From NCBI RefSeq assembly GCF_007713715.1, contig NZ_VJWX01000003.1:1-54458 (forward strand): a stretch of 54,458 nucleotides of DNA. The letters run 5' to 3'. Shown here in pieces: positions 1 through 27,628 of the stretch; the first letter of the stretch is position 1, and every line of letters starts with the position of its first letter. Source of the DNA: Amycolatopsis rhizosphaerae. Lineage in GTDB: Bacteria > Actinomycetota > Actinomycetes > Mycobacteriales > Pseudonocardiaceae. Under the pieces are notes generated by a model. That model saw nothing but the letters and a program-made list of their open reading frames with translations, was not told the origin of the DNA and did not search any database. A program made the position numbers and the translations under genes.

Positions 1-10
1 TCTCCAACAA
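1..10 (-). rRNA. 5' end of 16S rRNA gene (cut by window edge)
   Basis: Read on the minus strand the window ends in TTGTTGGAGA, which in actinobacteria runs directly into the 16S start (GTTTGATCCTGG). Only the first few bases of the mature 16S, if any, are inside the window, so the exact 5' end cannot be placed. The rRNA operon continues leftward beyond base 1. Confidence 0.6.
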
Positions 11-125
11 TGTCAGAAAATCCGATCGACTCAAACAGTCAATCTCAAAGGAACCCACAAAGGGTTCAAATATACAAAGCTCTACTGGCTTAGTTCATTA
101 GCACACTGTTGAGTTCTCAAACAAC
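11..125 (-). promoter_or_regulatory. rRNA leader with boxA-like antitermination element
   Basis: On the minus strand the stretch at 102-120 reads TTGAGAACTCAACAGTGTGC, the conserved leader element found upstream of actinobacterial 16S genes and linked to Nus-dependent antitermination and rRNA processing. It is followed by the AT-richer leader that ends at the 16S gene. No ORF here is credible. Confidence 0.75.
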
Positions 126-165
126 ACGCAACCGCAGTTGCCTTCTGCTCTTGTTGTCAGGCCAG

Positions 166-196
166 ACTCTACCCCGAGTCGAATCTTCCGATTCAA
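166..196 (-). promoter_or_regulatory. candidate rRNA operon promoter
   Basis: The minus strand carries TTGAAT (191-196) and TAGAGT (166-171), separated by 19 bases, about 45 bases upstream of the boxA-like element. Position and -10 resemble actinobacterial rrn promoters, but the spacer is longer than the optimum. Further promoters may lie in 197-295, where nothing stronger was seen. Confidence 0.35.
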
Positions 197-295
197 CCGG
201 GGGGTGTCCAACCCGGCAGCCTGGTACCCCGCTCCTTTGGACTTTCGCCCGCCGGCCCGGTCTCCCTGGCGACGAAGAGAAGATTACACGGGCCG

Positions 296-317
296 AAAAC
301 CCCCCTGGAACAGGGGG
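296..317 (-). terminator. rho-independent terminator of the aromatic operon
   Basis: A perfect 7-bp inverted repeat (301-307 with 311-317, loop 308-310) is followed on the minus strand by G and TTTT (299-296). It lies about 130 bases beyond the last gene of the minus-strand catabolic operon and should stop read-through into the rRNA promoter region. Confidence 0.7.
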
Positions 318-449
318 TCCCTTAAACACAAAACCGCTGATCAACGCCCTATCAGCGACTCCGACGGGCAACCGGCCACCGAATCCGCTCTCGCCGCGGA
401 ACCATCCATCGCACCGCAAGCCGCCGCGATGGCCGTTCGAATGAGCGAG

Positions 450-1286
450 TCAGGAGACGTCGCGGACGGTGTTGCGAAGCGTCCCGAGTTTGCCGACTTC
501 GACTTCGACGACGTCACCGTCGACGATGAATCCCGGCGGCTCCATGAAGAGCCCGACACCGCCCGGCGTGCCGGTGACGATGACGTCGCCGGGGGCGAGC
601 GGCGTGAACGTGGTGACGTATTCGATGATCGAGGGAATATCGTTGATCAGGTCGGCGACCCTGCCGCGCTGGCGTACCTCACCGTTGACCCGGGTCGTGA
701 GCTCGAGTTCGGTGACATCGCCGACCTCGTCGGCTGTTACCAGACAAGGACCGAAGCCTCCGGTCCCCGGCCAGGTCTTGCCGGGCAGCCACTGACTGGC
801 GGCACGCTGCCAATCGCGCACCGAGAAGTCGTTGTACACGGCATAGCCGGCGACGTGGTCGTAGGCCTCGGCCTTGGAGACCTGGTGCGCGGGCTTGGAG
901 ATGACCAGAGCCACCTCGCCCTCGTAGTCGAACTGCGCGGAGCCCGCCGGCTTGCGGGCGTCCTCGCCATGGCCCATCTGGCTGTCGGCGTAGCGGGCGA
1001 AGACGACCGGGGCCTGAGGAGCCGCCTTGCCGATCTCGTCCTGGTGGCTGCGGTAGTTGACCCCGATGCAGATGATCTTGCCGGGCTCCGGGATGACCGG
1101 AGCGAGCCGCACTTCGTCGAGCGCCACCGGGCGATCGGTGTAGTGGGCCAACGAATCGAGGGCGCCCGCTGCGATGGCTTCGGCAAGCGAAGGCGCTGTC
1201 GGGGTCGCGTCATAGATGGTCTCGGCGTCGAGACGCCCCCAGGCAATGCTGTGGTCGGCGCGGTAGTAGCTGACGAACTTGCTCAT
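450..1286 (-). CDS. fumarylacetoacetate hydrolase (FAH) family protein
   Basis: A 278-residue protein of the FAH superfamily, whose members hydrolyse or decarboxylate acylpyruvate-type products of aromatic ring cleavage using a divalent metal. Visible signatures are the GVNYRSHQDE stretch, the metal-binding EGE segment in FDYEGEVALVI, NDFSVRDWQ, and the C-terminal GDVIVTGTPGGVG motif. The ATG at 1286 has AGGAA upstream and starts at the usual family N-terminus; the frame stays open to 1532 but that extension is not protein-like. It is the last gene of the ten-gene minus-strand operon, 49 bases after a FAD hydroxylase. A terminator hairpin follows. The substrate is unknown; an acylpyruvate or hydroxymuconic intermediate fits the context. 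Confidence 0.85.
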   Translation of the reverse strand: MSKFVSYYRADHSIAWGRLDAETIYDATPTAPSLAEAIAAGALDSLAHYTDRPVALDEVRLAPVIPEPGKIICIGVNYRSHQDEIGKAAPQAPVVFARYADSQMGHGEDARKPAGSAQFDYEGEVALVISKPAHQVSKAEAYDHVAGYAVYNDFSVRDWQRAASQWLPGKTWPGTGGFGPCLVTADEVGDVTELELTTRVNGEVRQRGRVADLINDIPSIIEYVTTFTPLAPGDVIVTGTPGGVGLFMEPPGFIVDGDVVEVEVGKLGTLRNTVRDVS

Positions 1287-1335
1287 CGGGTTCCTGTTCA
1301 GTGGTGGGCGAGAGTGCGGGATCTCGGAGCATGGA

Positions 1336-2916
1336 TCAGTCCGGTCGGGAGCGGTCATCGATGAAGGCGCGGAGGCGCTCGACGACGCGTTGCTCGCCGG
1401 CGGAATCGAATACCGCCGCGACGTAGCGGTCGGGACGTACCGCGACGAAGACCGGAAGGGTGCCGGTGCCGGAGGTGAGCACCGCGGTGGTCTCGGTGAC
1501 CACGCTGTCGGCCGGCTCGCCGCCCGGTGCACGGACGCACAGCCGGTTCGCGCCGATCGCGTCCCAGTACGCGTCGACCGCCGCGTCGGGCGGACCTCCG
1601 ATCTGCAGCAGCGTCCACCCGCGCCCGAGGTGGGCGTCGAGTCCGCGCTCGGCGCCGATGGCGTCGCGTACGACCGGTTGGCTCAGGGCGCGGCCGACCG
1701 TCACGGCGTCGAGGGTGACGCCGTGCGCGGCAACGGCGACTCCGGCGGAGTAGTCGGGTGGTGCGATGAAGCGCATGTTGGCGAGGAATTCGCGGACACG
1801 GGGGATCAGGCCGACCGTGCGGACGACGGTGTCGCGTAAGCGCGTGACGACCGGGTGGGTCGCCATGACGACCGCGCCGATGCGGCGCGAGACCCTCACC
1901 ATCGCGGCTCCGTGGGTGCGGCGCTCGACCTCGTACGAATCCAGCAGCCGCTCGGTCGCACCGCCGCTGATCGCCTCGATCAGCTTCCAGGTGAGGTTGG
2001 TCGCGTCGCGGATACCGGCGTTCAGGCCCTGGCCCGCGAACGGCGGCATCAGGTGTGCGGCGTCACCGACGAGGAACGTGCGCCCCGCACGGTAGGCCCG
2101 CGCGACACGCTGGTGCGCGATATACACGGCCGCGCGGCGCACGTCATCCGGCGCCAGCTCGGCCCGGAAGCGCGGCACGACCAGCTCGCGGATCCGCTCC
2201 GGCGTCGTCATCTCCTCGGGGTCCTCGTCGTCGAAGAGCATGAACTCGATCCGTAGGCGTCCCTTGACGCCGGGCACGAGCACGTACGGCCGCTGCCCGT
2301 CGCCGTGGAATTCGGCGAACGGGCCCCGCGCGCGCGGCTCGTTGTGCAGATCGACGACGATCCACCGCTGCGGTTGGGTGGTGCCGGCCAGCTCGATCCC
2401 GACCGCCCGGCGGATGAAGCTGCGTCCGCCGTCGGCGCCGATCAGCCAGCCGGAGGTCAGAGTCCGTGTCTTCGCTCCGATGGTCACGGTCACGCTGGCC
2501 CCGTCGCCGTCCTGCGTGATCGCTGTTGCCTCGGCGCCGCGCAGGAATTCGAGTCCCTCGTGCGCGGCTGCTCGCTCCCACAGCAGCCGCTCCAGGATCG
2601 GCTGGTCGAACTGGGTCTTGGCGGGATGCCCCAGCCGGGACGCGACCGGCCTCGCTTCGAGCAGGAGGCGGTCCCCGAGCCCGAAGTAGCGACTGCCCGT
2701 GTCGAGCAGGGACTCGGCCTTGAGCGCGTCGGCCACACCGAGCTGTTCGAGGGTGCGGAACGACTCGTCCTGCAGGCTGATCGCGCGAGGCTGGTCGCCC
2801 GGTTCGGTCTCCTTCTCCACGAGCGTCGTACGCACACCCGCATCGGCGAGCAGGAGGGCGGCGACGAGCCCGATCGGACCGGCACCCACCACGAGCACGT
2901 CACGCCGCGCTGTCAC
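1336..2916 (-). CDS. FAD-dependent aromatic monooxygenase (phenol hydroxylase/MhpA-like)
   Basis: A 526-residue class A flavin hydroxylase predicted to insert one oxygen atom into a phenolic ring using NAD(P)H. FAD-binding motifs are in order: GAGPIG (res. 11-16), the GADGGRS segment (160-166, DG motif) and GDAAHLMPP (284-292, GD motif), followed by a thioredoxin-like C-terminal region as in MhpA and PHBH relatives. The start is GTG at 2916 with GGAGG just upstream; the GTGA overlaps the TGA stop of the preceding Baeyer-Villiger monooxygenase by 4 bases, indicating translational coupling. It is the second flavin hydroxylase in the operon, so the pathway probably needs two ring hydroxylations or handles two substrates. 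Confidence 0.87.
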   Translation of the reverse strand: MTARRDVLVVGAGPIGLVAALLLADAGVRTTLVEKETEPGDQPRAISLQDESFRTLEQLGVADALKAESLLDTGSRYFGLGDRLLLEARPVASRLGHPAKTQFDQPILERLLWERAAAHEGLEFLRGAEATAITQDGDGASVTVTIGAKTRTLTSGWLIGADGGRSFIRRAVGIELAGTTQPQRWIVVDLHNEPRARGPFAEFHGDGQRPYVLVPGVKGRLRIEFMLFDDEDPEEMTTPERIRELVVPRFRAELAPDDVRRAAVYIAHQRVARAYRAGRTFLVGDAAHLMPPFAGQGLNAGIRDATNLTWKLIEAISGGATERLLDSYEVERRTHGAAMVRVSRRIGAVVMATHPVVTRLRDTVVRTVGLIPRVREFLANMRFIAPPDYSAGVAVAAHGVTLDAVTVGRALSQPVVRDAIGAERGLDAHLGRGWTLLQIGGPPDAAVDAYWDAIGANRLCVRAPGGEPADSVVTETTAVLTSGTGTLPVFVAVRPDRYVAAVFDSAGEQRVVERLRAFIDDRSRPD

Positions 2917-4901
2917 GGCGTCGCCTCCGGTCGGGGGCGGAGCGTGAAGTCGGTGTCGAAGTCGGCGCCCCGGGTCAGCGCCCAGTACTCGAGATGGCTG
3001 TACGGCCATACCTGCGAGACCCGGCCGCGGGAGTTCTTGTACCAGGTGCGTACCTGCGGCTGCCCCCAGGCACACTCGGCATTGCCCTGGTCGATCCACG
3101 CGAGGAAGCGGTCCAGGGTCTCCTGCTTGACCTCGAGCGAGGCCGCCCCGCGGCGCAGCAACTGGTGGATCGCCTCGGTGGTGAACTCGACCCCGCATTC
3201 GATCATGAAGTGGAACTGGCCGTGCACGACGTAGTTCGTGTTGGGCCCCTGGATGAGGAAGAGGTTCGGGAAGCCGGGCACGGAGATGCCGGCCCAGGCC
3301 GTCGCATCACCGTTCCACTGCTCCTTGAGTGTCTGCCCGGACGGCCCGGTGACCACGATCGGGTCGAGGTAGTCGGACGCCTTGAACCCGGTCGCGTAGA
3401 TCACGGCGTCGACCGGGTGCCGCTCGCCGTCGGCGGTGACGATGCCGTCCGGCGTGAACCGTTCGATCGGGGAGGTGACGAGATTGGTGTGCTCGCGGTG
3501 CAGTGCGTGCGCCCACACGCCGTTGTCGCGGAGCATGCGCTTGCCGCCGGGCGGATACGCGGGCACGACGACGTCGAGCATGTCGGGGCGGTCCGCCCAC
3601 TGCTCGCGCATGATCGCGGTGAGTGCCTCACGCACCCGCAGGTTGGTTGCCGATACCGAGTCGGTGCGGTTCCACTCCGGATCGACCTTGACGGTGTGCA
3701 GCCGTCCCGTGCGCGCACCCCAGAACGCCTGGAACCGGAACCACTGCCCGTAGTGCGGGACGTGGTCGCTGAGCCAGGCCAGGGCCTGCGGTACCGGGTC
3801 GTGGTAGTTCGGGGCGGGAACCGTCCACGGTCCGGACCGCTGGAAGACGTCGAGGTGGGCGACCCGGTCGATGATGCCCGGGACGATCTGGTAGGCGCTG
3901 GCGCCGGTGCCGACCACGGCGACGCGCTTCCCGGTCAGGTCCACGCTGTGGTCCCACCGCGCGGAGTGCATCCGTACGCCGCCGAAGTCGTCCTGTCCGG
4001 GGATCTGGGGGATGTTCGGCTTCTCCAGCTGCCCGGTCGCGGCGATGACGGCGTGGAACCGCCGGTGCTGCTCGACGCCGTCGCGCCGTACGACGACCTC
4101 CCAGGTGGCCGATGCTTCGTCCCAGGTCATCGAGATGACCTCGGTGTCGAACTCGATGTGCTCACGCAGCTTGGCGCGATCGACGATCTCGACGGCGTAC
4201 GCCTCGATCTCCGCGCCCTCGGCGTACGCGTTGGGCCAGTCGGCCCGCTGGGCGAAGGAAAAGCTGTAGCCGAAGGTCGGGGTGTCCAGACGTACTCCTG
4301 GGTAGGTGTTGGCCCACCAGGTGCCGCCGACCTCGGGGTGCTTCTCGAACGCGACGAACCGTACGCCCGCCTGCCTGAGCCGGTACATGGCTGCGATGCC
4401 GCTCATCCCGGTGCCGATGACCGCGACTTCGAAGTCACGGTCGGGTGCGACCTCGTCGATGTGCCAAGTCGGTGCTCCCGGACGCTGTGTGACCAGGTCG
4501 AGCTCGTGCATCATCAGTGCCGCATCCTCGGCACTGGCCCCGCCCGTAACGAAGTCGACAATGGTGCGTGCTTCCTCGGGCTCCAGCAGGCGAGGCCTGG
4601 TGAGCCGCTCATCGCGGACGCGCTTGAGCGCGGGCAGCGCGAGCTCACGCGCATGAGCCTGCGCGGCCTCGCTCATGCCGCCATGTGCAGGCGGGGTCGT
4701 GTCGACGGGAGGAAGCGGGGGGCGCAGCTCCGCCGGGATCAACGCGTGATCTCCGGTCAGGGCTGCCAACGCCGTGAGCAGCGACGGCAGGTCGGCCTCG
4801 GCGACGATGCGTTCGAGGAAGGCGTCGTCCTCCGTGATGGGCGTGTACTCGTCGCGCCAGTACACGTCGTCGATCTCGGCGGCCTCGCTCGGGTCGGGCA
4901 T
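2913..4901 (-). CDS. type I Baeyer-Villiger monooxygenase (4-hydroxyacetophenone monooxygenase-like)
   Basis: A 662-residue flavoprotein predicted to convert a ketone to an ester by NADPH-dependent oxygen insertion. Two Rossmann motifs are visible, GTGMSG (res. 163-168, FAD) and GTGASA (331-336, NADPH). Between them is an exact match to the type I fingerprint FxGxxxHxxxW: FGGVRMHSARW (306-316). An N-terminal extension of about 150 residues, as in 4-hydroxyacetophenone monooxygenase, sets it apart from cyclohexanone-type enzymes. The ATG at 4901 is preceded by GGAGC. It lies between two flavin hydroxylases of the operon and overlaps the downstream one by 4 bases. Its presence suggests the operon's substrate carries an aryl-alkyl or aliphatic ketone; the exact ketone cannot be read from sequence. 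Confidence 0.9.
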   Translation of the reverse strand: MPDPSEAAEIDDVYWRDEYTPITEDDAFLERIVAEADLPSLLTALAALTGDHALIPAELRPPLPPVDTTPPAHGGMSEAAQAHARELALPALKRVRDERLTRPRLLEPEEARTIVDFVTGGASAEDAALMMHELDLVTQRPGAPTWHIDEVAPDRDFEVAVIGTGMSGIAAMYRLRQAGVRFVAFEKHPEVGGTWWANTYPGVRLDTPTFGYSFSFAQRADWPNAYAEGAEIEAYAVEIVDRAKLREHIEFDTEVISMTWDEASATWEVVVRRDGVEQHRRFHAVIAATGQLEKPNIPQIPGQDDFGGVRMHSARWDHSVDLTGKRVAVVGTGASAYQIVPGIIDRVAHLDVFQRSGPWTVPAPNYHDPVPQALAWLSDHVPHYGQWFRFQAFWGARTGRLHTVKVDPEWNRTDSVSATNLRVREALTAIMREQWADRPDMLDVVVPAYPPGGKRMLRDNGVWAHALHREHTNLVTSPIERFTPDGIVTADGERHPVDAVIYATGFKASDYLDPIVVTGPSGQTLKEQWNGDATAWAGISVPGFPNLFLIQGPNTNYVVHGQFHFMIECGVEFTTEAIHQLLRRGAASLEVKQETLDRFLAWIDQGNAECAWGQPQVRTWYKNSRGRVSQVWPYSHLEYWALTRGADFDTDFTLRPRPEATP

Positions 4902-4945
4902 CAGCGCTCCATCGTGTTCGGGGTTCGATCAGGGATGTGCCGGGA

Positions 4946-6562
4946 TCACGCGATGCAGGCGGCCTCGAAGACCTTGCCGAGTACGTCGCCGAGTTCCTGG
5001 GCGAGGCACTCGGCGGCGATCACATGGTCGGGGCGGACGATGACCGCGCCGACCGGGTGTGCGTCGAACCAGGCCTGCAGGCTCGACTCCCCACCGAGGT
5101 CGCCGACGACCGTGACGCCGGCCGCGGCGTGCTTGCGCGCCCACGGCAACTGTGTCGTCGGCACGACCTGCACGAGGTGGGCGCCGAGACGCTCGAGCAC
5201 GGCGAGCCGCTCCCCCGGCAGGAAGGCCGTCGGGTCGTTGTTCCAGGTGATCACCCGCCAGCCCTGCCCGGTGGCCTCGTCGAGCAGCATCTCCACGCCG
5301 TCCGCGTCGGTGGCCCTCGGCTGCGGGAAGATCGAGCCGGCGAGACGCGGCACGTCACGAGCCGGCAGTGTCTTGAACGTCGGCAGCGGGGTGTGCACCA
5401 CGACGCCCCGTTCGAACTTCGGCTGCGGCTTGAACGCCTGCCGCTTCTGGGCCTCCCGCTCCTCCGGGGTGCGGTTGGCGGCGAGCCGGTCGCGCTCGGC
5501 GGCCTTTTCGGGATCGTGGTCGGTCATCTCCTTCGCCATCCCGAGGGAGACGGCCACCATCTGCGTGACGTGGCCCCGCCGTTCGGTCTCGTACGTGTCC
5601 AGCAGAGCGTCGGTCGAGAGGCCCTTGAGAACGGCGGCCAGCTTCCAGCCGAGGTTGAAGGCGTCACGAATCCCCGAGTTCCAGCCCTGGCCGCCGACGA
5701 CCGGCATGACATGGGCGGCGTCACCGGCGAGGAAGATCCGCCCATGGCGGAACCGCCCGGCGATACGGGCGTGGTGCCGGTACACGCGGCGGCGGATGAT
5801 GTCGAGCTTGCCCGGGTCCGGTACGTGCGGGGCGAGCAGCCCGAAGATGAACGCGTCGTCGTCGACGAGGTCGGCGGTCTCGTGCTCGAAGAGTGTGAAC
5901 TCCCAGCGCCGGATGCCGTGCGGCAGCGCGATGGAGGCGTAGCTGCGGGCCGGGTCCCCGCCGAAGACGGCGTGGGGCGTGCCGATCGGGTCGTTGGCGA
6001 CGTCGATCACGATGCCGTCGGTCGGCCGGGTCTCGCCCTCGAACGAGATGCCGAGGCGCTTGCGGGTGGGTGAAGCCCCGCCCTCGGCGGCGACCCCGTA
6101 CCGTGCGCGGACGGTCTCGCCGCCCGCGAGGGTGGCCACCACGCCGTCCGCGTCTTCGACGAGGTCGGTGACCTCGGCGCCGAACCGTACGGCGGCGTTC
6201 GGGAAGCGGTCCAGGCCGTCGAGCAGCACCTGGTCGACCAGCGGCTGCACGAATCCGTTGCGGCGCGGCCAGCCGAACTCACGCGTCGTCGGGTTCACTT
6301 CGGACAGGATCATCCGTTCCCCGTTGACCATGTAGATCTTCTGGTCGGGGATGGTGTGCGGAAGCACCTCGTCGACGAGCCCGGCGGTCTGCATCGCGCG
6401 CAGCGCCTCGTCGTCGACACCGACGGCCCGTGGGTAGTCGATCAGCTTCTCGCCCTGCTCGACGAGGAGGACTTCGACCCCCTGCTGCCCCAACAGGTTC
6501 GCGAGGGTGAGGCCGACGGGCCCCGCACCGATGACGACGACATCGACGGCGGTCTTGCTCAT
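4946..6562 (-). CDS. MhpA-like FAD-dependent 3-(3-hydroxyphenyl)propionate hydroxylase family protein
   Basis: A 538-residue class A flavin hydroxylase closest in layout to MhpA, which makes a catechol from 3-(3-hydroxyphenyl)propionate. Motifs are GAGPVG (res. 12-17), GDAAHVMPVVGGQGWNSG (from 280), and a thioredoxin-like C-terminal part. The DG motif is atypical: AAEGGAS (158-164) instead of GADGxxS, so the conserved Asp is replaced by Glu. The ATG at 6562 overlaps the stop of the upstream aldolase gene (ATGA). A 44-base gap separates it from the Baeyer-Villiger gene. With the dioxygenase, C-C hydrolase and hydratase genes it completes the meta-cleavage set; actual substrate specificity is inferred from context only. 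Confidence 0.85.
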   Translation of the reverse strand: MSKTAVDVVVIGAGPVGLTLANLLGQQGVEVLLVEQGEKLIDYPRAVGVDDEALRAMQTAGLVDEVLPHTIPDQKIYMVNGERMILSEVNPTTREFGWPRRNGFVQPLVDQVLLDGLDRFPNAAVRFGAEVTDLVEDADGVVATLAGGETVRARYGVAAEGGASPTRKRLGISFEGETRPTDGIVIDVANDPIGTPHAVFGGDPARSYASIALPHGIRRWEFTLFEHETADLVDDDAFIFGLLAPHVPDPGKLDIIRRRVYRHHARIAGRFRHGRIFLAGDAAHVMPVVGGQGWNSGIRDAFNLGWKLAAVLKGLSTDALLDTYETERRGHVTQMVAVSLGMAKEMTDHDPEKAAERDRLAANRTPEEREAQKRQAFKPQPKFERGVVVHTPLPTFKTLPARDVPRLAGSIFPQPRATDADGVEMLLDEATGQGWRVITWNNDPTAFLPGERLAVLERLGAHLVQVVPTTQLPWARKHAAAGVTVVGDLGGESSLQAWFDAHPVGAVIVRPDHVIAAECLAQELGDVLGKVFEAACIA

Positions 6563-7329
6563 GCGGTGCTCCCAGAAGATCGTGCCGAGTCCAGCCCGGC
6601 GATGGTGTCGGCGAACGCACGGTTCAGCAGGACGAGGTCGATGCCGAGGGCCACGTAGTCGACCAGGCCGGCGGCGAACAGGCCGGCTGCGTACGCCGGC
6701 TGCCCCGAGTAGATGCCGAGGGTGACGCCGTGCGCCGTCGTCACCTCACGCAGGTGCGCGATCGCCTCCCGCACGGGGCCGTCCGCCCAGTCGCCCCGCC
6801 CGGGCAGTCCGTGGGAGACGGCCAGGTCGGCCGGGCCGATGTAGATGGAGTCCAGTCCCGGGGTCGAGATGATCTCCTCGGCCCGGTCCACGCCGGTCTT
6901 CGTCTCGATCTGGGCGATGGCGGATACGGCACGGTTGCCTGCCTCGGTGTACGAGGCGCCCTGGTACAGCGCCGGTCTGGACGGGCCAAGGCTGCGGTTG
7001 CCGACCGGGGGGTAGTGGACCGCGGCGACCAGCGCCTCGGCCTCGGCCCGGGATTCGATCGCGGGCGCGATGATGCCGCGGGCCCCGCTGTCGAGCAGCC
7101 GCAGGACCGGCGCGGGATCCAGCGAGCCCACCCGCGCGTACGAGTACGCGTTCTGACGCGGCAGCGAACGCAGGATCCCGCATGCCGCCTCCAGGCCCAG
7201 TTCGCCGTGCTGGAGGTCGAGTACCACCCCGTCGTAGCCGGCTGCCGCCGCCCACTCCGGCATCGAGAACGACGGCACCGACTGGTGGTACAGCACGGGG
7301 TTGCCGTCGCCGAGAGCCGCCTGCTTCAC
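6559..7329 (-). CDS. HpcH/HpaI family aldolase
   Basis: A 256-residue class II, metal-dependent aldolase of the HpaI family, which splits 4-hydroxy-2-oxo acids into pyruvate and an aldehyde. Family signatures are VVLDLQHGEL with the active-site His, GARGIIAPAIES, IAQIETKTG with the metal-ligand Glu, and YIGPADLAVSHG with the ligand Asp. GTG at 7329 gives the standard N-terminus and overlaps the stop of the SnoaL-like gene by 4 bases; the longer frame to 7548 is an antisense-type extension. It occupies the place where mhp operons carry MhpE, a DmpG-type aldolase, and no acetaldehyde dehydrogenase (MhpF) is present, so the aldehyde product must be handled elsewhere. Confidence 0.88.
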   Translation of the reverse strand: MKQAALGDGNPVLYHQSVPSFSMPEWAAAAGYDGVVLDLQHGELGLEAACGILRSLPRQNAYSYARVGSLDPAPVLRLLDSGARGIIAPAIESRAEAEALVAAVHYPPVGNRSLGPSRPALYQGASYTEAGNRAVSAIAQIETKTGVDRAEEIISTPGLDSIYIGPADLAVSHGLPGRGDWADGPVREAIAHLREVTTAHGVTLGIYSGQPAYAAGLFAAGLVDYVALGIDLVLLNRAFADTIAGLDSARSSGSTA

Positions 7330-7790
7330 TGTGCCGGCCCCTCTCGCCCGGCCAGCCGCGCGGCGTGCGCCGCGGCCGCCTTGCCGCCGAAGACCGGCAC
7401 GATCTCGCGGCGGGCGAACCGCCACTGCCCGTCGACCCTGCGGTACCGCTCGCGGAACTCGCCGACCGAAGCGGGCTGCGTCTGCGGCTCGTTGGTGTCG
7501 CGGAAGGTCAGGTACTGCACCGTGCCGTCGACCTCCTCGCCGTCCCACACGAGGCGGATCCCGCCGATGAAGTGCCGGCTGACGATGTCGGTCTGCTTGG
7601 CGCGCCTGGTACCCCAGGCCTTCATGGCCTCGCGGTCCATGTCGCCCAGTGGGCCGGCCGAGACGCCGTCCTCGGTGTACAGCTCCCAGGTGGTGTCCGC
7701 CCGGTTGTGGTCGAGGCGGTACAGCATCTCCGCGATCAGCTGCTCGATCTCGACGCGGGTCGTCGCGTCGACGGGGCGGTAGTCGCTCAT
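7326..7790 (-). CDS. SnoaL-like / NTF2-fold protein
   Basis: A 154-residue single-domain protein with the alpha+beta pattern of the SnoaL-like/NTF2 fold: an N-terminal helix (EIEQLIAEMLYRLDHNR), a DG-containing first strand region, FRERYRRVDGQWRFARREIVPVF near the end. Members act as small cyclases, hydratases, isomerases or as the small subunit of ring-hydroxylating dioxygenases; no large subunit is present here. ATG at 7790 follows AAGG. It begins 2 bases after the hydratase stop and overlaps the aldolase start by 4 bases, so it is translated as part of the pathway. A specific reaction cannot be named. Confidence 0.8.
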   Translation of the reverse strand: MSDYRPVDATTRVEIEQLIAEMLYRLDHNRADTTWELYTEDGVSAGPLGDMDREAMKAWGTRRAKQTDIVSRHFIGGIRLVWDGEEVDGTVQYLTFRDTNEPQTQPASVGEFRERYRRVDGQWRFARREIVPVFGGKAAAAHAARLAGREGPAQ

Positions 7791-7792
7791 GT

Positions 7793-8587
7793 TCAGCCTT
7801 TCGAATCCGCGGTCGCGACCACGCGACCGAGCCCGGTGATGGTGGCGACGCACTCGACGTCGGCGGGCCACGGCTCGATGTAGCCGATGGACCCGGACAG
7901 CAGCACCTCGCCGGCCCGCAGCGGTTCGCCGGTGCGGATCGCGGTCCCGGCCAGCCAGATCACCGCGTTGACCGGGTCCCCCAGCACGTTGCCGCCGACG
8001 CCGCGGGTGATCTCCGTGGCGCCGCCGGTGATGATCATCTCCACCTTGGTGAGGTCGACCTCGCCGTACGGGTGCTGCTCCTCGCCGAGCACGATGCCGC
8101 TGCAGCCGGCGTTGTCCGCGATGGTGTCGACGATCTGCCCGACCGAGCCGCCGTAGCGGAAGTCGACCACCTCGAACGCCGGTGTCACGTAGTCGATCGC
8201 GGCCTCGACGCCCTCGCGAGAGGCCTCGAGGATGTCGCTCTTCAGCACGAAGGCGACCTCGGCCTCGATCAGCAACCGGTTGTACTGCGACAGCGGCAGA
8301 TGCGAGCCCGAGGGGTGCACCATGTCGTCGTGGATGATCCCGTAGTCGGGCTCATCGATACCCACGCGCTGCTGTACGAGGGGGTTGGTCAGGCCGACCT
8401 TGCGGCCCACCCGCTTCACCCCCAGCTCGCGCTCGCGGAGGGCGGCGAACTCGGCGGAGATCGCGTACGCCGCGTCGAGATCACGCTCGGGGAGCCGGGG
8501 GCTCACGTACGGCACGGTGTACACGCCGCGCTTCGCCTCGAACAGCTCGCGCGCGATCCGGTCGATGGTCTCCTTGGTGACACTCAC
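7793..8587 (-). CDS. 2-keto-4-pentenoate hydratase family (MhpD-like)
   Basis: A 264-residue enzyme of the hydratase/decarboxylase branch of the FAH superfamily. MhpD-type members add water to 2-hydroxypenta-2,4-dienoate after ring cleavage. Signatures include VGRKVGLTN, GIIHDDM, the metal-binding EAEVAFVL segment, and GDPVNAVIWLA near the C-terminus. GTG at 8587 overlaps the upstream stop codon (GTGA); a second GTG at 8583 (two codons in) would also serve. It follows the C-C hydrolase gene and precedes the SnoaL-like gene, in the biochemical order expected for meta-cleavage. Confidence 0.88.
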   Translation of the reverse strand: MSVTKETIDRIARELFEAKRGVYTVPYVSPRLPERDLDAAYAISAEFAALRERELGVKRVGRKVGLTNPLVQQRVGIDEPDYGIIHDDMVHPSGSHLPLSQYNRLLIEAEVAFVLKSDILEASREGVEAAIDYVTPAFEVVDFRYGGSVGQIVDTIADNAGCSGIVLGEEQHPYGEVDLTKVEMIITGGATEITRGVGGNVLGDPVNAVIWLAGTAIRTGEPLRAGEVLLSGSIGYIEPWPADVECVATITGLGRVVATADSKG

Positions 8588-9486
8588 TGCCGGTCCATTC
8601 CGCTCGCGTGCTTCTTCAGGAAGGCGACCGCCGCGGCGTTGAACTCCGCCGCGCCCTCCCACTGCGGCCAGTGCGCGGCCCCGCGGACCAGCAGGTACTC
8701 GCCGTCCGGCAGCAGCCCGCACAGCCGCTCGCCCTCGGCCTCGTCGCCGGTCGGCTCGTTGTCGGTCCACACCATCAGGGCCGGGACCGGCACCGCGGCG
8801 AAGTCTTCGTCCGTGACCCGGTTGCGCCACCGCCGCTCCGGCTCCCGCAGCGCGGACACGTTCGCCATGCTGAACCCGTCCCGGGCGTAGATCGCCTGGC
8901 GGACGCGTACCAGCTCGTCGGTGATGTTGTCCGGGTCGTGGATGACGACCTGCAAGCGCTTCTTCACGTTGTCGAAGGTCGGCTCGCTCACCGCCTGGGT
9001 GCTCACCGACTGCGTCTTGTCCAGCCGCGCTTCGGCGATCATCCGCCCGCCCGGCGCGGACAGGATCACCGTGTGCAGCCGCTCGGGGTGCTTCGGCGCG
9101 AACTTCAGTGCGAGCCACCCGCCCAGCGACTCGCCGGCGAGGTGCACACGCTCCAGCTCCAGCGTGTCGAGCAGCGCGAGCAGGTGCTCCTCGTAGTCGC
9201 GGATCTCCAGCGGATGATCTGCTGGCGAGGTGTAGCCGTGGCCGGGGTAGTCGTAGCCGACCACCCGGAAGCCCGCCTCGACGAAGGCGCGGACGTTCTG
9301 CGTCCACGCCTCGATGTGGCCGCTGGTGCCGTTGGCGAGTATGACCGTCTGCGCCCCGGGGCCCGCTCCGGTGAAGTCGAGGACCCGGGTGCGGTAGCCG
9401 CGCACGTCCACGTACCGCAGCGTGTGCTCCAGGTCCGCGATCTCCTCCCAGAAGGTCGCGAGGTGCCTCTTTCCTCCGCGGTTCAC
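8584..9486 (-). CDS. alpha/beta hydrolase, C-C bond hydrolase of meta-cleavage (MhpC-like)
   Basis: A 300-residue alpha/beta hydrolase. The nucleophile elbow is GESLGG (Ser about residue 120), with the oxyanion region ANGTSGHIEAW and a C-terminal RGAAHWPQWE carrying the catalytic His. In this context it should cleave the C-C bond of the ring-opened dienoate made by the dioxygenase. GTG at 9486 overlaps the dioxygenase stop codon by 4 bases. A GGAGGAAAGAGG tract lies just inside the predicted start, and no better start follows it in frame, so the N-terminus is a little uncertain. Confidence 0.85.
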   Translation of the reverse strand: MNRGGKRHLATFWEEIADLEHTLRYVDVRGYRTRVLDFTGAGPGAQTVILANGTSGHIEAWTQNVRAFVEAGFRVVGYDYPGHGYTSPADHPLEIRDYEEHLLALLDTLELERVHLAGESLGGWLALKFAPKHPERLHTVILSAPGGRMIAEARLDKTQSVSTQAVSEPTFDNVKKRLQVVIHDPDNITDELVRVRQAIYARDGFSMANVSALREPERRWRNRVTDEDFAAVPVPALMVWTDNEPTGDEAEGERLCGLLPDGEYLLVRGAAHWPQWEGAAEFNAAAVAFLKKHASGMDRQ

Positions 9487-10418
9487 GCGGTCACCGCCGC
9501 CTGGATCGCGAAGCCGGCGCCCCACTTCTCGACCGCCCAGTAGTGGTCGACGGCCAGGCGGTACGGGCCCGCCGTGGACAGTGCCGCGTAGGCGGCGATC
9601 CAGCTGCGCATCTCGTGCGCGGCCGAGCCGCCCTCCGCCAGGAACCAGCCGTTCTCCCAGCCGTCCACCGGATCGAGGTCGCCGGAGCGGAGCACGTCGA
9701 GGACGAGCGTGTCCCATTCCTCGTTCAGCGGGTCGCTCGGGGCCTTGCCGTCGGCGATCGCCTGGATGCCCTTGACGATCATCTGCTCGCGCTCGTGCCG
9801 TTCCTCCGGCGAGGGCGCGTACCTGACCAGGCGCTCTTGCACGGTGTCGGGGGCACCCTCCCAGCGCGGGATCGGCGGGCTGTGGGAGATGCCGCCCGAG
9901 GCGAGGAACAGCACCTTCTTGTCCATCGCCTTGGCGGCCCGGCCGAACGCCTCCCCCATGAGGCGCACCCGCTGCATGGGGGAAAGCGGCAGGCCGATCG
10001 AGTTCACGAACACCGGCACGATCGGCTGCGTGAAATCCTTCCCGAACACGAAGTCGAGCGGCTGCACCACGCCGTGATCGACCTTCATCTGCTCGCTGCG
10101 GCCGATGTCGATGCCTTCACCCAGCACTGCCGTGTGGAAGGCCCGGGCGGCGCCGCCGTCGACGGGGAGCGGACCCGCGGTGGTGCCGTAGTCACCGACG
10201 CCTTCGGCGACCGCACCGATCACCCACGGTGTGATCAGCGAGTAGAGCTGGCCGTTGAAGTGGTCGGGCCCGAACACCACGACCAGGTCGGGGTCGTACT
10301 CGGCGACGAACCCCCTGACCTCGTCGATGGCGGCATTGATCTCGGCGAACGTCTCCCCGCCCGGGTCGACATTGCCGAAGGACGGTGCATGGGAGAGCGC
10401 TGCGACGGCCAGCGGCAT
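9483..10418 (-). CDS. mhpB: class III extradiol dioxygenase (MhpB-like 3-carboxyethylcatechol 2,3-dioxygenase)
   Basis: A 311-residue LigB-type extradiol dioxygenase. It should open a catechol ring next to the hydroxyls using Fe(II) and O2. Conserved histidine segments are visible in order: LSHAPSF at the N-terminus (His 10), FGPDHFNGQ, DHGVVQPLDF and GGISHSPPIP, matching the MhpB family in spacing and total length. ATG at 10418 follows an AAGGGA ribosome site. It is the first enzyme gene after the importer gene, 35 bases downstream of it. MhpB itself acts on 2,3-dihydroxyphenylpropionate and the related cinnamate; here the natural catechol is inferred, not shown. Confidence 0.9.
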   Translation of the reverse strand: MPLAVAALSHAPSFGNVDPGGETFAEINAAIDEVRGFVAEYDPDLVVVFGPDHFNGQLYSLITPWVIGAVAEGVGDYGTTAGPLPVDGGAARAFHTAVLGEGIDIGRSEQMKVDHGVVQPLDFVFGKDFTQPIVPVFVNSIGLPLSPMQRVRLMGEAFGRAAKAMDKKVLFLASGGISHSPPIPRWEGAPDTVQERLVRYAPSPEERHEREQMIVKGIQAIADGKAPSDPLNEEWDTLVLDVLRSGDLDPVDGWENGWFLAEGGSAAHEMRSWIAAYAALSTAGPYRLAVDHYWAVEKWGAGFAIQAAVTA

Positions 10419-10453
10419 GGCCTGTTTCCCTTCTCGAAAATGGTGGACGGCTG

Positions 10454-11803
10454 CTACGCGGACGTACCGGCGAGCTGGGCATCCGGTGCATCGGAGCGGC
10501 GCAGGCCCAGGTGCAGACCCACGACGCAGAGGCCGGTGACGAGCAGGGGCAAAGCGAAGACCGTGAAGGCCTCCCCCATCCCCATGCCCGCGTCGAAGGC
10601 CGCCCCGCCGAGGATCGGCGCCGCGATGCCGCCGAACCGGCCGACGCCGATGACGACGCCGAAACCGGTCGAGCGGGCCAGTGTCGGGTACAGCGTGGGG
10701 ACGATCGCGTAGAAGGCGGCGGTGCCCGCGCAGACGAAGAACGAGGCCAGGAACAGGGTCCACCAGGCGGTCGGCATCCCCGGGCCGGCGATGCCGAACA
10801 GCGACAGGGCGGCGGTGGCCAGGAACAGGAAGACCGGGGCGAGGAAGCGGACGTTGAGCTTGCCGCCGAGGAAGCCGAAGAGCACGTTGCCGAGGATGCC
10901 GCCGATGCTGAAGGCGGTGACGAGCTGCGGGGCGAGTGCCGGTTTGTGGTTGGCGGACGCGACAGCGCTCGGTGCCCAGGTCGTCATGAAGTAGAAGCTG
11001 AGCATGTACGCGACGTACCCGACGACCATCAGCAGCGTGTAGAAGCCGGTCCGGCCGGTGAACACGGTGCGCAGCGAGCCCTTCGCCTTGACGCCCGTCG
11101 AGTCGGACTCCGGGAGCGCTTCGAGTGCGGGGCGGCGCATCTTCGTCAGGAGCGCGTTGAGCCGCTGCAGGGAGTCCCTGTGACGGCCCTCGGAAAGCCA
11201 GGCGAGCGATTCGGGGAGGAAGGCGAACGTGGCGACCGCGGCGATCGCGCTCATGCCGAATCCGACCCACCAGCCGAACTGCCAGCCGTGTGCGCCGAGC
11301 ATCGGGCCGACGATCATGGAGCCGAGCAGCCCGCCGATGTTGATCGCGGCGGCGTAGACGGCCATCACCAGCGAGTACACGCGCTTGCCCGTGTACTCGG
11401 CGAGGATGACGCCGACCGCGGCCACCAGGGACCCGACGCCGATGCCGGTGATGATGCGGCTCACGACGAGGGGCCCGGTCCCGGTCTCCGGCGTCGCGAA
11501 CGGGCCGATGAGCATGCCCACCGCAATCGTCACGGTGGAGATGACGCCCAACTTGCGTCTGCCGATGCGGTCGGCGAGCGGCGCGACGATGATCGAGCCC
11601 ACGAGCATGCCGATCAGGGCGCCGGACATGACGAGTCCGAGCTCGGCCTTGGAGATCCCGAAGCCCTTCTCGACGTACGGGGCGGCGAACGACGAGAGCG
11701 AGACGTCGTAGCCGTCGAGTACGACCAGGGCGATCGCGACGCTGACGGCGCGGATCTGTAGGCCGCTCATCTTCTCTTGAGTGATCTGGTCATTGATCCT
11801 CAT
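10454..11803 (-). CDS. MFS transporter, aromatic acid:H+ symporter type
   Basis: A 449-residue integral membrane protein with about twelve hydrophobic segments. Features of the AAHS group (PcaK/MhpT-like) are DGYD in the first membrane segment and the loop motif ADRIGRRK between helices 2 and 3. It probably imports the aromatic substrate of the operon. ATG at 11803 gives MRINDQITQEKM; an internal ATG 11 residues on is an alternative and the frame is open upstream to 11842. It is the promoter-proximal gene of the minus-strand operon, facing a divergent TetR gene across 210 bases that contain a palindromic site. Confidence 0.88.
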   Translation of the reverse strand: MRINDQITQEKMSGLQIRAVSVAIALVVLDGYDVSLSSFAAPYVEKGFGISKAELGLVMSGALIGMLVGSIIVAPLADRIGRRKLGVISTVTIAVGMLIGPFATPETGTGPLVVSRIITGIGVGSLVAAVGVILAEYTGKRVYSLVMAVYAAAINIGGLLGSMIVGPMLGAHGWQFGWWVGFGMSAIAAVATFAFLPESLAWLSEGRHRDSLQRLNALLTKMRRPALEALPESDSTGVKAKGSLRTVFTGRTGFYTLLMVVGYVAYMLSFYFMTTWAPSAVASANHKPALAPQLVTAFSIGGILGNVLFGFLGGKLNVRFLAPVFLFLATAALSLFGIAGPGMPTAWWTLFLASFFVCAGTAAFYAIVPTLYPTLARSTGFGVVIGVGRFGGIAAPILGGAAFDAGMGMGEAFTVFALPLLVTGLCVVGLHLGLRRSDAPDAQLAGTSA

Positions 11804-11902
11804 GAAGGTCTCTCTATCTCGGCTCGAGCGGACATGCGCCATCGCAGTGGCCCGCTGGGATGAGGTGGACCGCGCACCGGGTCGCGTTCCGTCAGAGCTA
11901 AC

Positions 11903-11920
11903 CTAGAAGCAGGGTTCTAG
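11903..11920. promoter_or_regulatory. candidate TetR operator between transporter operon and tetR
   Basis: A perfect inverted repeat CTAGAA-N6-TTCTAG sits about 100 bases from each divergent start codon. Its position and symmetry fit an operator for the neighbouring TetR protein controlling both the catabolic operon and itself. No second copy was seen nearby. Confidence 0.5.
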
Positions 11921-12013
11921 AATCGCCATTACAATGACCACGGCCATCGCCGGTGTCAAGGGTTGGCGCCGATTTGGTAGAACTACTGCAGTCCGAGAGC
12001 AGCGAGGGGACCG

Positions 12014-12649
12014 ATGACCACGAGGCGGAAGACCCGCCAGGCGTCCGAGTCGTCGAAGCGGGCGATTCTCGAAGCCGTGCTCTCGCGCGCGGTCGAGGCC
12101 GGGTACGAGGGCACCACCATGGCCGATGTCGCCGGCGCGTCCGGTCTGCCGATCGGATCGGTCTACTGGCACTTTCAGAACAAGGAGCAACTCTTCGTCG
12201 AGCTGCTCGACTACTGCTTCGAGGTCTGGAAGCAGGCCAACGCGTCCGTCGGTAGCATGCGCGACCTGCTACGACGCAGCATCAGCGAGTCGGCGGCAGC
12301 CTCGGCGAGCCTGGCCGAGCCGGCCGCCGCGTTCTGGAGCATCGGTCTCGTCTTCGCGTTCGAGCGGCGCCTGGAGGACAACCTCGCACGGCAGCGGTAC
12401 CTGGCCATCCGCAAGGAGATGTTCCAGTTCGTCACCGGCCAGCTGCGGGCCTCGTACCCGGAGGTACCGGAGGATGTCGCGGAAGAGTTGGCGCACGACA
12501 TGGCCGTCATGGGGCGCGCGCTCACCGACGGCTTCCGGGTAGCCGCGGCCGCCGGCGATGACATCGACTTCGCCCGGTACGCCGAGCTGGCTGCCGACGC
12601 GCTCGAGTCCCTGGTCTCCACCCGCCTGAAGGAGTACGCGCATGGCTGA
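12014..12649 (+). CDS. TetR family regulator of the aromatic operon
   Basis: A 211-residue TetR protein. The N-terminal helix-turn-helix is clear (TMADVAGASGLPIGSVYWHFQNKEQL, about residues 36-61, quoted in parts: ADVAGASGLPIGSVYWHF), followed by a helical ligand-binding domain. AGGGGA lies upstream of the ATG at 12014. It is divergent from the catabolic operon with a shared palindrome between them, so it most likely represses the operon until an aromatic ligand binds. Its last 8 bases overlap the start of a downstream SDR gene, so the two are co-translated. Confidence 0.88.
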   Translation: MTTRRKTRQASESSKRAILEAVLSRAVEAGYEGTTMADVAGASGLPIGSVYWHFQNKEQLFVELLDYCFEVWKQANASVGSMRDLLRRSISESAAASASLAEPAAAFWSIGLVFAFERRLEDNLARQRYLAIRKEMFQFVTGQLRASYPEVPEDVAEELAHDMAVMGRALTDGFRVAAAAGDDIDFARYAELAADALESLVSTRLKEYAHG

Positions 12650-13370
12650 GACCACCTCGTCCGCATCCGAGAAGGTCGCGATCATCGTCGGTGCCGGATC
12701 CGGAATCGGCGCCGCGTGCGTGCGGGAGTTCGCCGCGAACGGCTACCGGGTGGTCGCGATGTCGCCGTCGGGCCGGGCCCGAACCCTGGCCGAATCGCTC
12801 GGTGGCGCGGGTCTGGACGGCTCGAACACCAGCATCGAGGACCTTCAGGCGTGCGTCGACCTCACGGTGTCGCGGTACGGCCGGGTCGACGCGGTCGTCA
12901 ACAGCAGCGGTCACGCGGCACGCGGGCCGGTACTTGAGATCACCGACGAGCAATGGTTCGAGGGCGTCGACCTCTACCTGCTGAACGTCGTGCGCATGGC
13001 CCGCCTCGTGACGCCCCACCTGATCGCCTCCGGCGGCGGCGCGATCGTGAACATCTCCACCGCAGGCGCCTTCGAGCCCAGCCCGATGTTCCCCGTCTCG
13101 GTGACGATGCGAGCGGCGCTGGCCTCTTTCACCAAGCTGTACGCCAACGAATACGGCCCGCAGGGCATCCGGATGAACAACGTGCTCACCGGGCTGACCA
13201 AGGACGACCCCAGCGTCGTCCCGGCCGGGTGGACGAGCGGCATCCCACTGCGTCGAGCGCAGAGCACCGCGGAGGCCGCCCGGGTCGTACGCTTCCTGGC
13301 CGGCGAGGAGTCGGCCTACATGACCGGACAGAACCTCCGCGTTGACGGCGGAGAGACCAAGTCGGTCTGA
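12642..13370 (+). CDS. SDR-family protein lacking the usual Tyr/Lys catalytic pair
   Basis: A 242-residue short-chain dehydrogenase/reductase fold protein. The NAD(P) glycine motif GAGSGIG (17-23) and the C-terminal GQNLRVDGG are intact, and Ser 139 is present in IVNIST. At the place of the YxxxK motif the protein reads PVSVTMRAAL (151-160), so neither Tyr nor Lys is there whichever one-residue register is used; NNAG is also altered to NSSG. Divergent SDR subfamilies of this kind exist, but catalysis by the textbook mechanism is unlikely. It overlaps the TetR gene by 8 bases and ends at a short hairpin, so it may have a pathway-linked or sensory role. Confidence 0.82.
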   Translation: MAETTSSASEKVAIIVGAGSGIGAACVREFAANGYRVVAMSPSGRARTLAESLGGAGLDGSNTSIEDLQACVDLTVSRYGRVDAVVNSSGHAARGPVLEITDEQWFEGVDLYLLNVVRMARLVTPHLIASGGGAIVNISTAGAFEPSPMFPVSVTMRAALASFTKLYANEYGPQGIRMNNVLTGLTKDDPSVVPAGWTSGIPLRRAQSTAEAARVVRFLAGEESAYMTGQNLRVDGGETKSV

Positions 13371-13386
13371 GCGCCTGTTGGCGCTC
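13369..13386 (+). terminator. hairpin at the end of tetR-SDR
   Basis: A perfect 7-bp inverted repeat (13369-13375 with 13380-13386, 4-base loop) begins inside the SDR stop codon. No T tract follows, which is common in actinobacteria. Confidence 0.5.
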
Positions 13387-13621
13387 GCGAGGTGTTGCTG
13401 GCCGACTTCTCCATGTTGATCAGGTCCTTGAGGACCGGCGAGGTCGGCGGAGCCGAACAGTGCGAAGCCGACCGCGGCGCTCGGTTTGTCGGCGAGGACG
13501 TGCGCGAGAAAGCCCGCTATAGGGCTTTGTGCTCCTTCGAGTCGCCGACGCGGCGCGTTGAAGGCACCGTAAACTTGGAGCGCCCGTTTCACGGCGTCTC
13601 ACCGAGCGGCCGCGACCGAGT
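13387..13621. other. no supported gene
   Basis: This stretch has open frames on the minus strand but none with a convincing start, RBS or family signature. It may hold a decayed gene end. Confidence 0.4.
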
Positions 13622-13996
13622 TCACTGACACGTCGAGACGACATCGGAATTCCGGCCGGGGTCACTGCGACGGGACCGGTAGTCGTCCAGCAACCGGTAG
13701 AACAGTGCCAGCGGCTCTTCTTCCTCCGCGTGGTCTTCGATGGCCCGTGCCCACCCGCAGGCCATCGACCATCCGTGACGGGCTTGTACCCACTTGGCAA
13801 AGGCACCGCCACCCGCCGCGAAGACGAATGTGTCGTCGATTCCATGGACGGACAACGCCACGCCGTAACCATGGAGGATCAACTCAAGGTCCCGCAAGGA
13901 CTTGATCCACATGCTCGGGCGCAGCCGGATCTGCTCCAGCAGATCGTAGAGATCCTGGCATTCCCCGACCGGTTTCACCCGCGGATCAGTTGACAT
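13622..13996 (-). CDS. small conserved-type actinobacterial protein, unknown function
   Basis: A 124-residue acidic soluble protein. The layout LYDLLEQIRLRPSMWIKSL, then LELILHGYGVAL, a Trp-rich middle (FAKWVQARHGWSMACGWA) and EEEEPLALFYRLLDDYR is one I associate with short actinobacterial hypothetical proteins often found near immunity or toxin-related genes; that association is from memory and not tested. ATG at 13996. It stands alone, next to a region of decayed genes and a SUKH/DUF1963 pair, which makes an immunity-like role possible but unproven. Confidence 0.65.
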   Translation of the reverse strand: MSTDPRVKPVGECQDLYDLLEQIRLRPSMWIKSLRDLELILHGYGVALSVHGIDDTFVFAAGGGAFAKWVQARHGWSMACGWARAIEDHAEEEEPLALFYRLLDDYRSRRSDPGRNSDVVSTCQ

Positions 13997-14064
13997 GATC
14001 GGATATTACCGTCCGAGGTACCCAGCGGTCATGTCCGGCGGGGTGGTGTAAAGAGACTTATTGC

Positions 14065-14176
14065 TTGGAGACGAAGGTCACCGACCCCGCGCACCGGTTC
14101 TCCGTGGACGAACGCGGCCGCCGACTGCTACTCGAAGGCCTCGACACGGTCGGGGAAACACTTCGTTTCTCCTGCG
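14065..14176 (+). pseudogene. possible C-terminal remnant of a LeuD-like (isopropylmalate dehydratase small subunit) gene
   Basis: The plus-strand frame from 14065 translates to a short stretch resembling the LeuD C-terminus (HRFSVDERGRRLLLEGLDTVGETLR; compare the family's FEIDPFRR..LL.GLDDIGLTL). There is no start with an RBS and the rest of the gene is absent upstream, where a stop interrupts the frame. It is best read as a fragment. Similarity is short and judged by eye. Confidence 0.35.
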
Positions 14177-14210
14177 GTATTCGGGTGGAGAAGGATCTCC
14201 ACCCGAATAC
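14177..14210. terminator. perfect 15-bp inverted repeat, probable terminator
   Basis: Arms 14177-14191 and 14196-14210 are exact reverse complements around a 4-base loop. It lies 32 bases beyond the stop of the epoxide hydrolase gene on the minus strand. No T tract on either side. Confidence 0.6.
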
Positions 14211-14241
14211 GACAACAGACCGATACCCGGCTCTGGTCGGT

Positions 14242-24824: not shown

Positions 24825-24965
24825 CCTGGCGTCGCGGGCCGGGCATGCCGGACGGCACCTCGGCCCGCGACCTCGGCGTTCCCGCCGACGGCCACCGCGT
24901 CACACCCGCTGTCCCCGCGCCGAGCACCAGGACGGCGCCCTGACGATCTCCGCAGAGGAAGCCCG

Positions 24966-26531: not shown

Positions 26532-26577
26532 CGCAGTCATCGACAAACCATTCCAGGCGCCAAGGAGGACGTCGGTC

Positions 26578-27570: not shown

Positions 27571-27628
27571 CCAGTTCAGCGGCGCACCCCTGTCAAACCG
27601 TTGTGGCGCTGCGGAATGCCGGGCAGCA

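Follow-up and report, generated by a model that had tools for sequence, protein, structure and literature searches.

A Baeyer-Villiger monooxygenase joined to mhp-like ring-cleavage genes in a twelve-gene unit of Amycolatopsis rhizosphaerae

Gene content and boundaries of the unit

The stretch of DNA that we analyzed (the window, 54,458 nucleotides, contig NZ_VJWX01000003.1 of Amycolatopsis rhizosphaerae) carries ten genes on its reverse strand, at 450-11803 by open reading frame coordinates, that combine homologs of the E. coli mhp meta-cleavage enzymes with a type I Baeyer-Villiger monooxygenase (BVMO). An earlier reading of the letters (the sequence-only reading) had named the ten genes and their families, and these were borne out by the coordinates and by Pfam and NCBIfam, which support every family named for the ten proteins; NCBIfam scores other than that of MhpB were mostly under the curated cut-offs. 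The 4-base overlaps claimed for most junctions are found at five of nine, the gaps in transcription order (MFS first) being 35, -4, -4, 2, -4, -4, 44, -4, and 49 bases. The ten genes had been taken as the whole unit; the genes are real, and the full unit comprises twelve and reaches to 13370, because a divergent TetR-family regulator (12014-12649, forward strand; family match and neighborhood) and an SDR-fold protein (12642-13370, forward strand; 8-base overlap with the TetR gene) adjoin them in all eight genomes that share the gene order. At the other end, the sequence-only reading started at 296 because a terminator-like hairpin past the last gene, FAH, ends there (296-318, reverse strand, followed by TTTT; RNA fold of -15.5 kcal/mol for a 41-base stretch). 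This hairpin was not among the five sites given by a generic terminator scan.

An inverted repeat, TTCTAGAAC-N5-TTCTAG, lies upstream of the ten genes (11903-11922, reverse strand) and is proposed as the operator at which TetR controls these genes. The window holds no other match with up to two mismatches, and 100 shuffles gave none. Versions of the repeat are conserved in 12 of the 17 other loci scanned, comprising all 12 close loci (L009, L010, L011, L012, L013, L033, L046, L070, L071, L072, L073, and L074; L and G numbers are our handles for loci and genomes) and none of the five distant ones (L048, L060, L075, L077, and L078), the scan having taken in part of the G150 and G1002 clusters only. 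No sigma-70 site was found in 1-13500 by the rule of the promoter scan; the sequence TTGACA is present at 11954-11959, within a TTGAC that is kept in all ten aligned intergenic regions.

Seven genes, all on the reverse strand, constitute what we refer to as the ring-cleavage core. They encode an importer of the major facilitator superfamily (MFS) of the aromatic acid symporter type, which scored under the subfamily cut-off (10454-11803), an MhpB-like class III extradiol dioxygenase (9483-10418; 38% identity to E. coli MhpB), a divergent MhpC/BphD-like hydrolase (8584-9486; 27% to E. coli MhpC), an MhpD-like 2-hydroxypentadienoate hydratase (7793-8587; 37% to E. coli MhpD), a small SnoaL-like protein (PF13577; 7326-7790; family match), an HpaI-type pyruvate aldolase (6559-7329; family match), and the group A flavin hydroxylase MhpA1 (4946-6562; 42% to E. 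coli MhpA). With a score of 434.8 against a cut-off of 291 (NF009910), MhpB is over the NCBIfam threshold for 3-carboxyethylcatechol 2,3-dioxygenase; MhpA1, MhpC, and MhpD score under theirs. Alignment showed that the Asp-His and His motifs of MhpB are retained, as are the metal and catalytic motifs of HpaI; we take the motifs of both proteins to have their customary roles. Among solved structures, HpaI comes closest to a hydroxyketoacid aldolase. MhpC agrees with the E. coli enzyme in the Ser, His, Arg, and HWxQWE but departs from it in two other motifs and in the presumed triad acid. All ten aligned sequences of the SnoaL-like protein keep Asp27 and His73. Structure predictions were poor for SnoaL (mean pLDDT 44.9) and MhpC (60.5), each made from five near-identical sequences, and were unfit for fold search.

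The remaining three genes of the operon, also on the reverse strand, encode the BVMO (2913-4901; family match and alignment), FMO2, a second group A flavin hydroxylase (1336-2916) that is a more distant MhpA homolog than MhpA1 (32% to E. coli MhpA), and a hydrolase of the FAH superfamily (PF01557, family match; 450-1286), proposed to be a C-C hydrolase of the acylpyruvase type. The BVMO fingerprint reported by the sequence-only reading was confirmed at residues 306-317, where FGGVRMHSARWD matches FxGxxxHxxxW[P/D] and is flanked by both Rossmann GxGxx[G/A] motifs (GTGMSG and GTGASA); its final position differs in the BVMOs of Nocardioides luteus (N) and G145 (R). The best solved relatives, steroid monooxygenase and phenylacetone monooxygenase (PAMO), match in separate stretches and none over the full length. 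Residue 12 of PAMO aligns with residue 152 of the BVMO, which has an N-terminal extension of ~140 residues. An extension of about 130-140 residues characterizes the HAPMO subfamily, and it is on the extension that the tentative label HAPMO-type is based. The motif regions of FAH, with roles that we presume from the family, are mostly kept in nine aligned sequences.

The SDR has Ser-x3-Arg where the classical Tyr-x3-Lys is expected in 10 of 10 aligned sequences, two of which (G256 and G145) are 47% relatives; we placed the motif by eye on what we take to be the Tyr-x3-Lys consensus. On this alignment the protein is a conserved atypical SDR, and we doubt that it is an ordinary alcohol dehydrogenase producing the ketone, as both Tyr and Lys are replaced.

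Relative to the E. coli mhp system for 3-hydroxyphenylpropionate, the cassette shares the MhpA-D homologs and an aromatic-acid-type MFS importer, has an HpaI-type aldolase instead of MhpE/MhpF, adds SnoaL, BVMO, FMO2, FAH, and SDR, and has TetR in place of the activator MhpR. Neither MhpE nor MhpF was found among the ten operon proteins by Pfam and NCBIfam; the description of the set as a complete mhp-type set thus stands for MhpA to MhpD and not for this last pair, one copy of which is present elsewhere in the genome on another contig (G000:C810:6708-8623).

A ring-cleavage core with an optional module

The twelve genes occur in the same order in eight distinct genomes: the window, a congener (G003; L033 and L034), Streptomyces brasiliensis JCM 3086 (L009), S. 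shenzhenensis (L010), S. spiralis JCM 3302 (L011), S. carpinensis NRRL B-16921 (L013), G643 (taken as the fifth Streptomyces), and Nocardioides luteus (L012). G643 left out, the flanking genes beyond the twelve differ among the loci, except that S. brasiliensis and S. spiralis share the region downstream of FAH. Two genomes of one genus, G145 and G1235, have all twelve genes in another order at ~39-56% identity, and two of another genus, G150 and G1002, have eleven of the twelve, likewise rearranged, at up to 74% identity, with no match to MFS in their clusters. ABC-importer genes lie between the modules in G150, and ABC-like genes are present in G1002. In both of these genomes a carboxylesterase-family gene directly follows the BVMO gene, and a second MhpB adjoins FAH (L047 10470-11393; L076 about 1725-2654), hinting at a second ring-cleavage step. 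A query with the G150 esterase gave only one further match, a partial one in S. silvae lying away from a BVMO remnant; unrelated esterases were not sought.

Six genomes have the core only: G256, G475, G818, G508, G452 (S. brasiliensis genus group), and G988. BVMO, FMO2, and FAH were not found in the stretches covering these six clusters (FAH was not searched genome-wide), and a TetR match is present beside the core in five of the six. In whole-genome searches (E<=1e-90) of 11 genomes picked for known full (5) or core-only (6) clusters, BVMO and FMO2 were both present in five and both absent from six, so the add-on is optional and its two flavoenzymes travel together. Together with the order shared by eight genomes, this co-occurrence upholds the earlier inclusion of the BVMO in the unit, which by gene content is a core ring-cleavage pathway with an optional BVMO-FMO2-FAH module. 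Six loci carry a BVMO of at least 82% identity; the core is present in five and the sixth is ended by a contig edge.

S. silvae For3 (L015 1505-3205) carries an in-frame BVMO-FMO2 fusion with an adjoining FAH match, in which blast matched BVMO residues 1-254 and FMO2 residues 197-524. The fusion is probably a deletion with loss of both enzymes, and possibly a misassembly. L015 was counted as neither full nor core since its contig begins inside MhpA1, and G1183 (L079) was left out of the counts since its contig begins at MhpB.

Among 392 genomes from the G256 genus, seven have MhpB at 85% identity or above (two with the full order and five with the core only). In the family of the window, MhpB at this level was found in 2 of 390 genomes, both from its own genus, for which 19 genomes were searched; MhpB at 74% identity was found in 2 of 294 genomes of the family of G150. 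Each of these samples covers part of a larger group, and they share genomes with another sample of 394. No SnoaL or HpaI match was identified in 20 regions, some of them short, with MhpB of 51% identity or less (L049-L059 and L080-L088).

BVMO relatives were also observed in other surroundings. Directly beside the cassette in G003 is a second catabolic island (L033 7554-16203) with a carboxymuconolactone-decarboxylase-like gene, an FAD hydroxylase, FAH, a glyoxalase-type dioxygenase, MFS, an N-terminally extended BVMO (50% identity to that of the window), and IclR; this island resembles a flavonoid-type cluster. Plasmid p_4-4_A of Rhodococcus pyridinivorans (L029 11605-18139), typed as conjugative, encodes a BVMO 52% identical to that of the window, whose neighbors are alpha/beta hydrolases, an SDR, a PDR/VanB-family oxidoreductase, and a P450, with an IS3-family transposase near. 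A plasmid search with the BVMO returned 867 records, every one below 60% identity, and the four plasmid regions inspected around such matches held other clusters.

Proposed pathway and alternative substrates

The explanation that we consider somewhat more probable than its negation is that the unit is an inducible, horizontally spread cassette of two modules, in which an aryl ketone would be converted via an ester to a hydroxyphenyl-alkanoate for the core, and the other half of the ester would be processed via FMO2 and FAH. MFS would import an aromatic acid or ketone, the BVMO would convert an aryl ketone to an aryl ester, and an esterase, encoded within the cluster in G150 and G1002 and presumably elsewhere for the window, would split the ester into a phenol and a hydroxyphenyl-alkanoate feeding the core. 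Since what comes out of the ester has to serve an enzyme of the MhpA type, a hydroxyphenyl-alkanoate is the likeliest acid half. MhpA1 would then produce a 3-substituted catechol, MhpB would open its ring, MhpC would cleave the product to an acid and 2-hydroxypentadienoate, MhpD would hydrate the latter, and HpaI would split the hydrated product into pyruvate and an aldehyde, while FMO2 and FAH would hydroxylate and then finish the phenol half. TetR, bound at the palindrome at 11903-11922, may repress the unit until substrate is present. The sequences themselves show the gene families, the unit and its modularity, the close similarity across orders, and the conserved palindrome; the reactions, the substrate, the regulation, and the roles of SnoaL, SDR, FMO2, and FAH are inferred from them. 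That the ketone is first opened to an ester, as the sequence-only reading had proposed, is made likelier by the carboxylesterase-family gene after the BVMO gene in two genomes of one genus.

That reading had also taken the HpaI aldolase and the lack of an aldehyde dehydrogenase to point to different end products, which we consider unwarranted. HpaI-type aldolases can cleave 4-hydroxy-2-oxovalerate and, as MhpD is retained, this compound would still be the simplest aldolase substrate, giving pyruvate and acetaldehyde; as the MhpE/MhpF pair is encoded on another contig, the absence of a dehydrogenase from the operon says little.

Several observations weigh against the two-module explanation. An esterase is absent from the cassette of the window itself, and the BVMO relatives of ~50% identity in G003 (its second copy) and on the R. 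pyridinivorans plasmid sit without the core, so that BVMO chemistry is not tied to this route. In MhpC, HGSGPGA is replaced by NGTSGHIEA and GNSMGG by GESLGG, and the triad acid aligns with Glu. The SDR lacks the Tyr-Lys pair, and an alcohol-to-ketone step is therefore not to be assumed, and in the core-only genome G475 the MFS gene lacks a close TetR neighbor, the sole TetR match being distant and lying on the opposite side.

Among known systems, the hap cluster of Pseudomonas fluorescens ACB for 4-hydroxyacetophenone reportedly has an N-terminally extended BVMO followed by an esterase and a hydroquinone dioxygenase. It shares with the cassette an extended BVMO in a catabolic cluster, and the cassette differs in its mhp-like extradiol route; neither an in-cluster esterase nor a hydroquinone dioxygenase of the hap type is found among the ten proteins. 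The hpa/hpc system for 4-hydroxyphenylacetate shares the HpaI-type aldolase, an HpaG-like FAH protein, and an HpaH/MhpD-type hydratase, and there was no match to HpaD, HpaE, or HpaF among the ten proteins. Expression data have led to proposals of entry by a BVMO and a hydrolase for acetophenone (AcpAB; PMC9618137) and anthraquinone (PMC9836352). The acpAB genes of Rhodococcus rhodochrous GD02 are a BVMO gene then an esterase gene, as in G150 and G1002, proposed as the entry to a phenol route, but as described in the accessible part of that source they form a two-gene cluster with a BVMO closest to PAMO and with no meta-cleavage genes joined (PMC9618137). Pseudomonas mandelii hcdABC, for 7-hydroxycoumarin, shares a flavin hydroxylase, an extradiol dioxygenase, and a hydrolase acting on a hydroxyphenylpropionate, and differs, in the sections of the source available, in its type I extradiol dioxygenase and an operon without a BVMO; the product proposed there, 2-hydroxy-4-oxopent-2-enoate, would suit an acylpyruvase of the FAH type (PMC6222606). 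A literature search, mainly of titles and abstract openings and with subscription papers mostly outside its reach, found no published cluster of this composition, nor an operon of the same order with a known substrate. The chemistry is familiar, and the gene combination looks to be undescribed.

As to the substrate, the presence of FMO2 and FAH, and of an additional MhpB in G150 and G1002, points to another aromatic ring in the other half, likewise opened by meta-cleavage, with FAH acting on an acylpyruvate. Two-ring ketones of the dihydrochalcone type would fit this. The BVMO would put oxygen between the ketone and a ring and an esterase would part the rings, the phenylpropanoate half going to MhpA1, MhpB, MhpC, MhpD, and HpaI and the polyphenol half to FMO2, an MhpB, and FAH. 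We advance only tentatively, and think rather unlikely, that breaking down two-ring aryl ketones, dihydrochalcones for instance, is the dedicated function of the cassette as one recently spread mobile unit of soil actinobacteria. It is conceivable, if doubtful, that the substrate is instead a ring-fused aromatic ketone (of the 1-indanone, 1-tetralone, or chromanone type), from which the BVMO would form a lactone such as dihydrocoumarin, yielding a 3-(2-hydroxyphenyl)alkanoate that MhpA1 would convert to a 2,3-dihydroxyphenyl-alkanoate for completion by the core. Such a substrate would join the BVMO directly to the MhpA-MhpB-MhpC route without a second ring; a Baeyer-Villiger reaction has been suggested from metabolites in fluorene degradation via indanone by Arthrobacter F101 (accessible part of PMC9836352), and OhpB, cited as MhpA-related, oxidizes both 2- and 3-hydroxyphenylpropionate (accessible part of PMC6222606). 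Ring-fused ketones fit the core, but FMO2 and FAH would be left without a clear job, and the additional MhpB that adjoins FAH in G150 and G1002 speaks for a second ring, or for a second product of ring cleavage.

We think it unlikely that the BVMO acts on simple acyl-phenols of the hydroxyacetophenone type, from which phenyl esters and, in turn, simple phenols would form as in the hap and acp routes, with the mhp-like genes serving a separate route in the same operon. The N-terminal extension resembles that of HAPMO, but neither a hydroquinone nor an intradiol dioxygenase is among the ten proteins, and the core accompanies the BVMO at five of the six loci of high BVMO identity. Routes through a BVMO are cited in PMC9618137 for both acetophenone and 4-hydroxyacetophenone. 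Degradation of flavonoids in the manner of fde/ifc clusters is most improbable. Those clusters share with the cassette a group A FAD hydroxylase and an extradiol dioxygenase, similar genes lie beside the cassette in G003, and the G003 island, with its glyoxalase-type dioxygenase, FAH, FAD hydroxylase, and further BVMO, is reminiscent of fde; however, the dioxygenase FdeC/IfcB is glyoxalase-like and accompanied by cupins, with no BVMO mentioned in the accessible part of PMC11069340, no such dioxygenase is found among the ten proteins, and the island was seen only in G003, the few neighbor genes scanned elsewhere and ten neighbor genes in the window being of other kinds. We rejected fde/ifc membership since the cassette dioxygenase is of the LigB type. 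We also consider it highly unlikely that the putative BVMO plays no part in carbon catabolism and instead oxygenates nitrogen or sulfur or serves in detoxification: sequence alone cannot fix its substrate and its best solved relatives match piecewise, but the type I fingerprint and both Rossmann motifs are present, and it is paired with a phenol-hydroxylase-like FMO2 and, in two genomes, with the carboxylesterase-family gene.

If the two-module explanation is correct, a single regulated unit would combine BVMO opening of aromatic ketones with ring cleavage of the mhp type, a function would be given to co-travelling genes so far known by family only, and a BVMO whose natural substrate is aromatic would be in hand, which is of use for biocatalysis. 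It would also bear on the soil turnover of lignin- and flavonoid-derived ketones. Because some strains carry the core alone and others carry BVMO-FMO2-FAH as well, nature supplies pairs whose growth can be compared as a direct test of the substrate.

Selection, transfer, and contig context

The ratio dN/dS was 0.12-0.38 across all twelve genes in comparisons with S. spiralis, G003, and N. luteus. In the alignments used for dN/dS and motifs, the sequence entered for G256 under FMO2 (36%) proved to be its MhpA1 and was left unused, and the G003 row for MFS is incomplete at the locus edge. The cassette proteins are 88-96% identical to those of S. brasiliensis (dS 0.12-0.34) and YchF, a control from the same genome pair, is 73% identical (dS 0.61), a comparison weakened as support for transfer by its resting on one control gene and by a method that ignores codon bias. 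Such close similarity across orders is consistent with horizontal spread among soil actinobacteria, which, jointly with the whole of the two-module explanation, we hold to be somewhat probable.

The window is a whole 54-kb contig (1-54458) of an assembly of 896 contigs, longer than seven other contigs of that assembly (3,930-15,363), and its GC content is 68.0%, vs. 71.0% in 17 other stretches. The contig may be an accessory replicon or foreign, an origin that leaves the presence of the cassette in named culture-collection strains unaffected. Further along, at 24048-28669, genes for an SDR, an AMP-binding enzyme, and a luciferase-like monooxygenase on the forward strand and for another SDR on the reverse strand possibly form another catabolic set.

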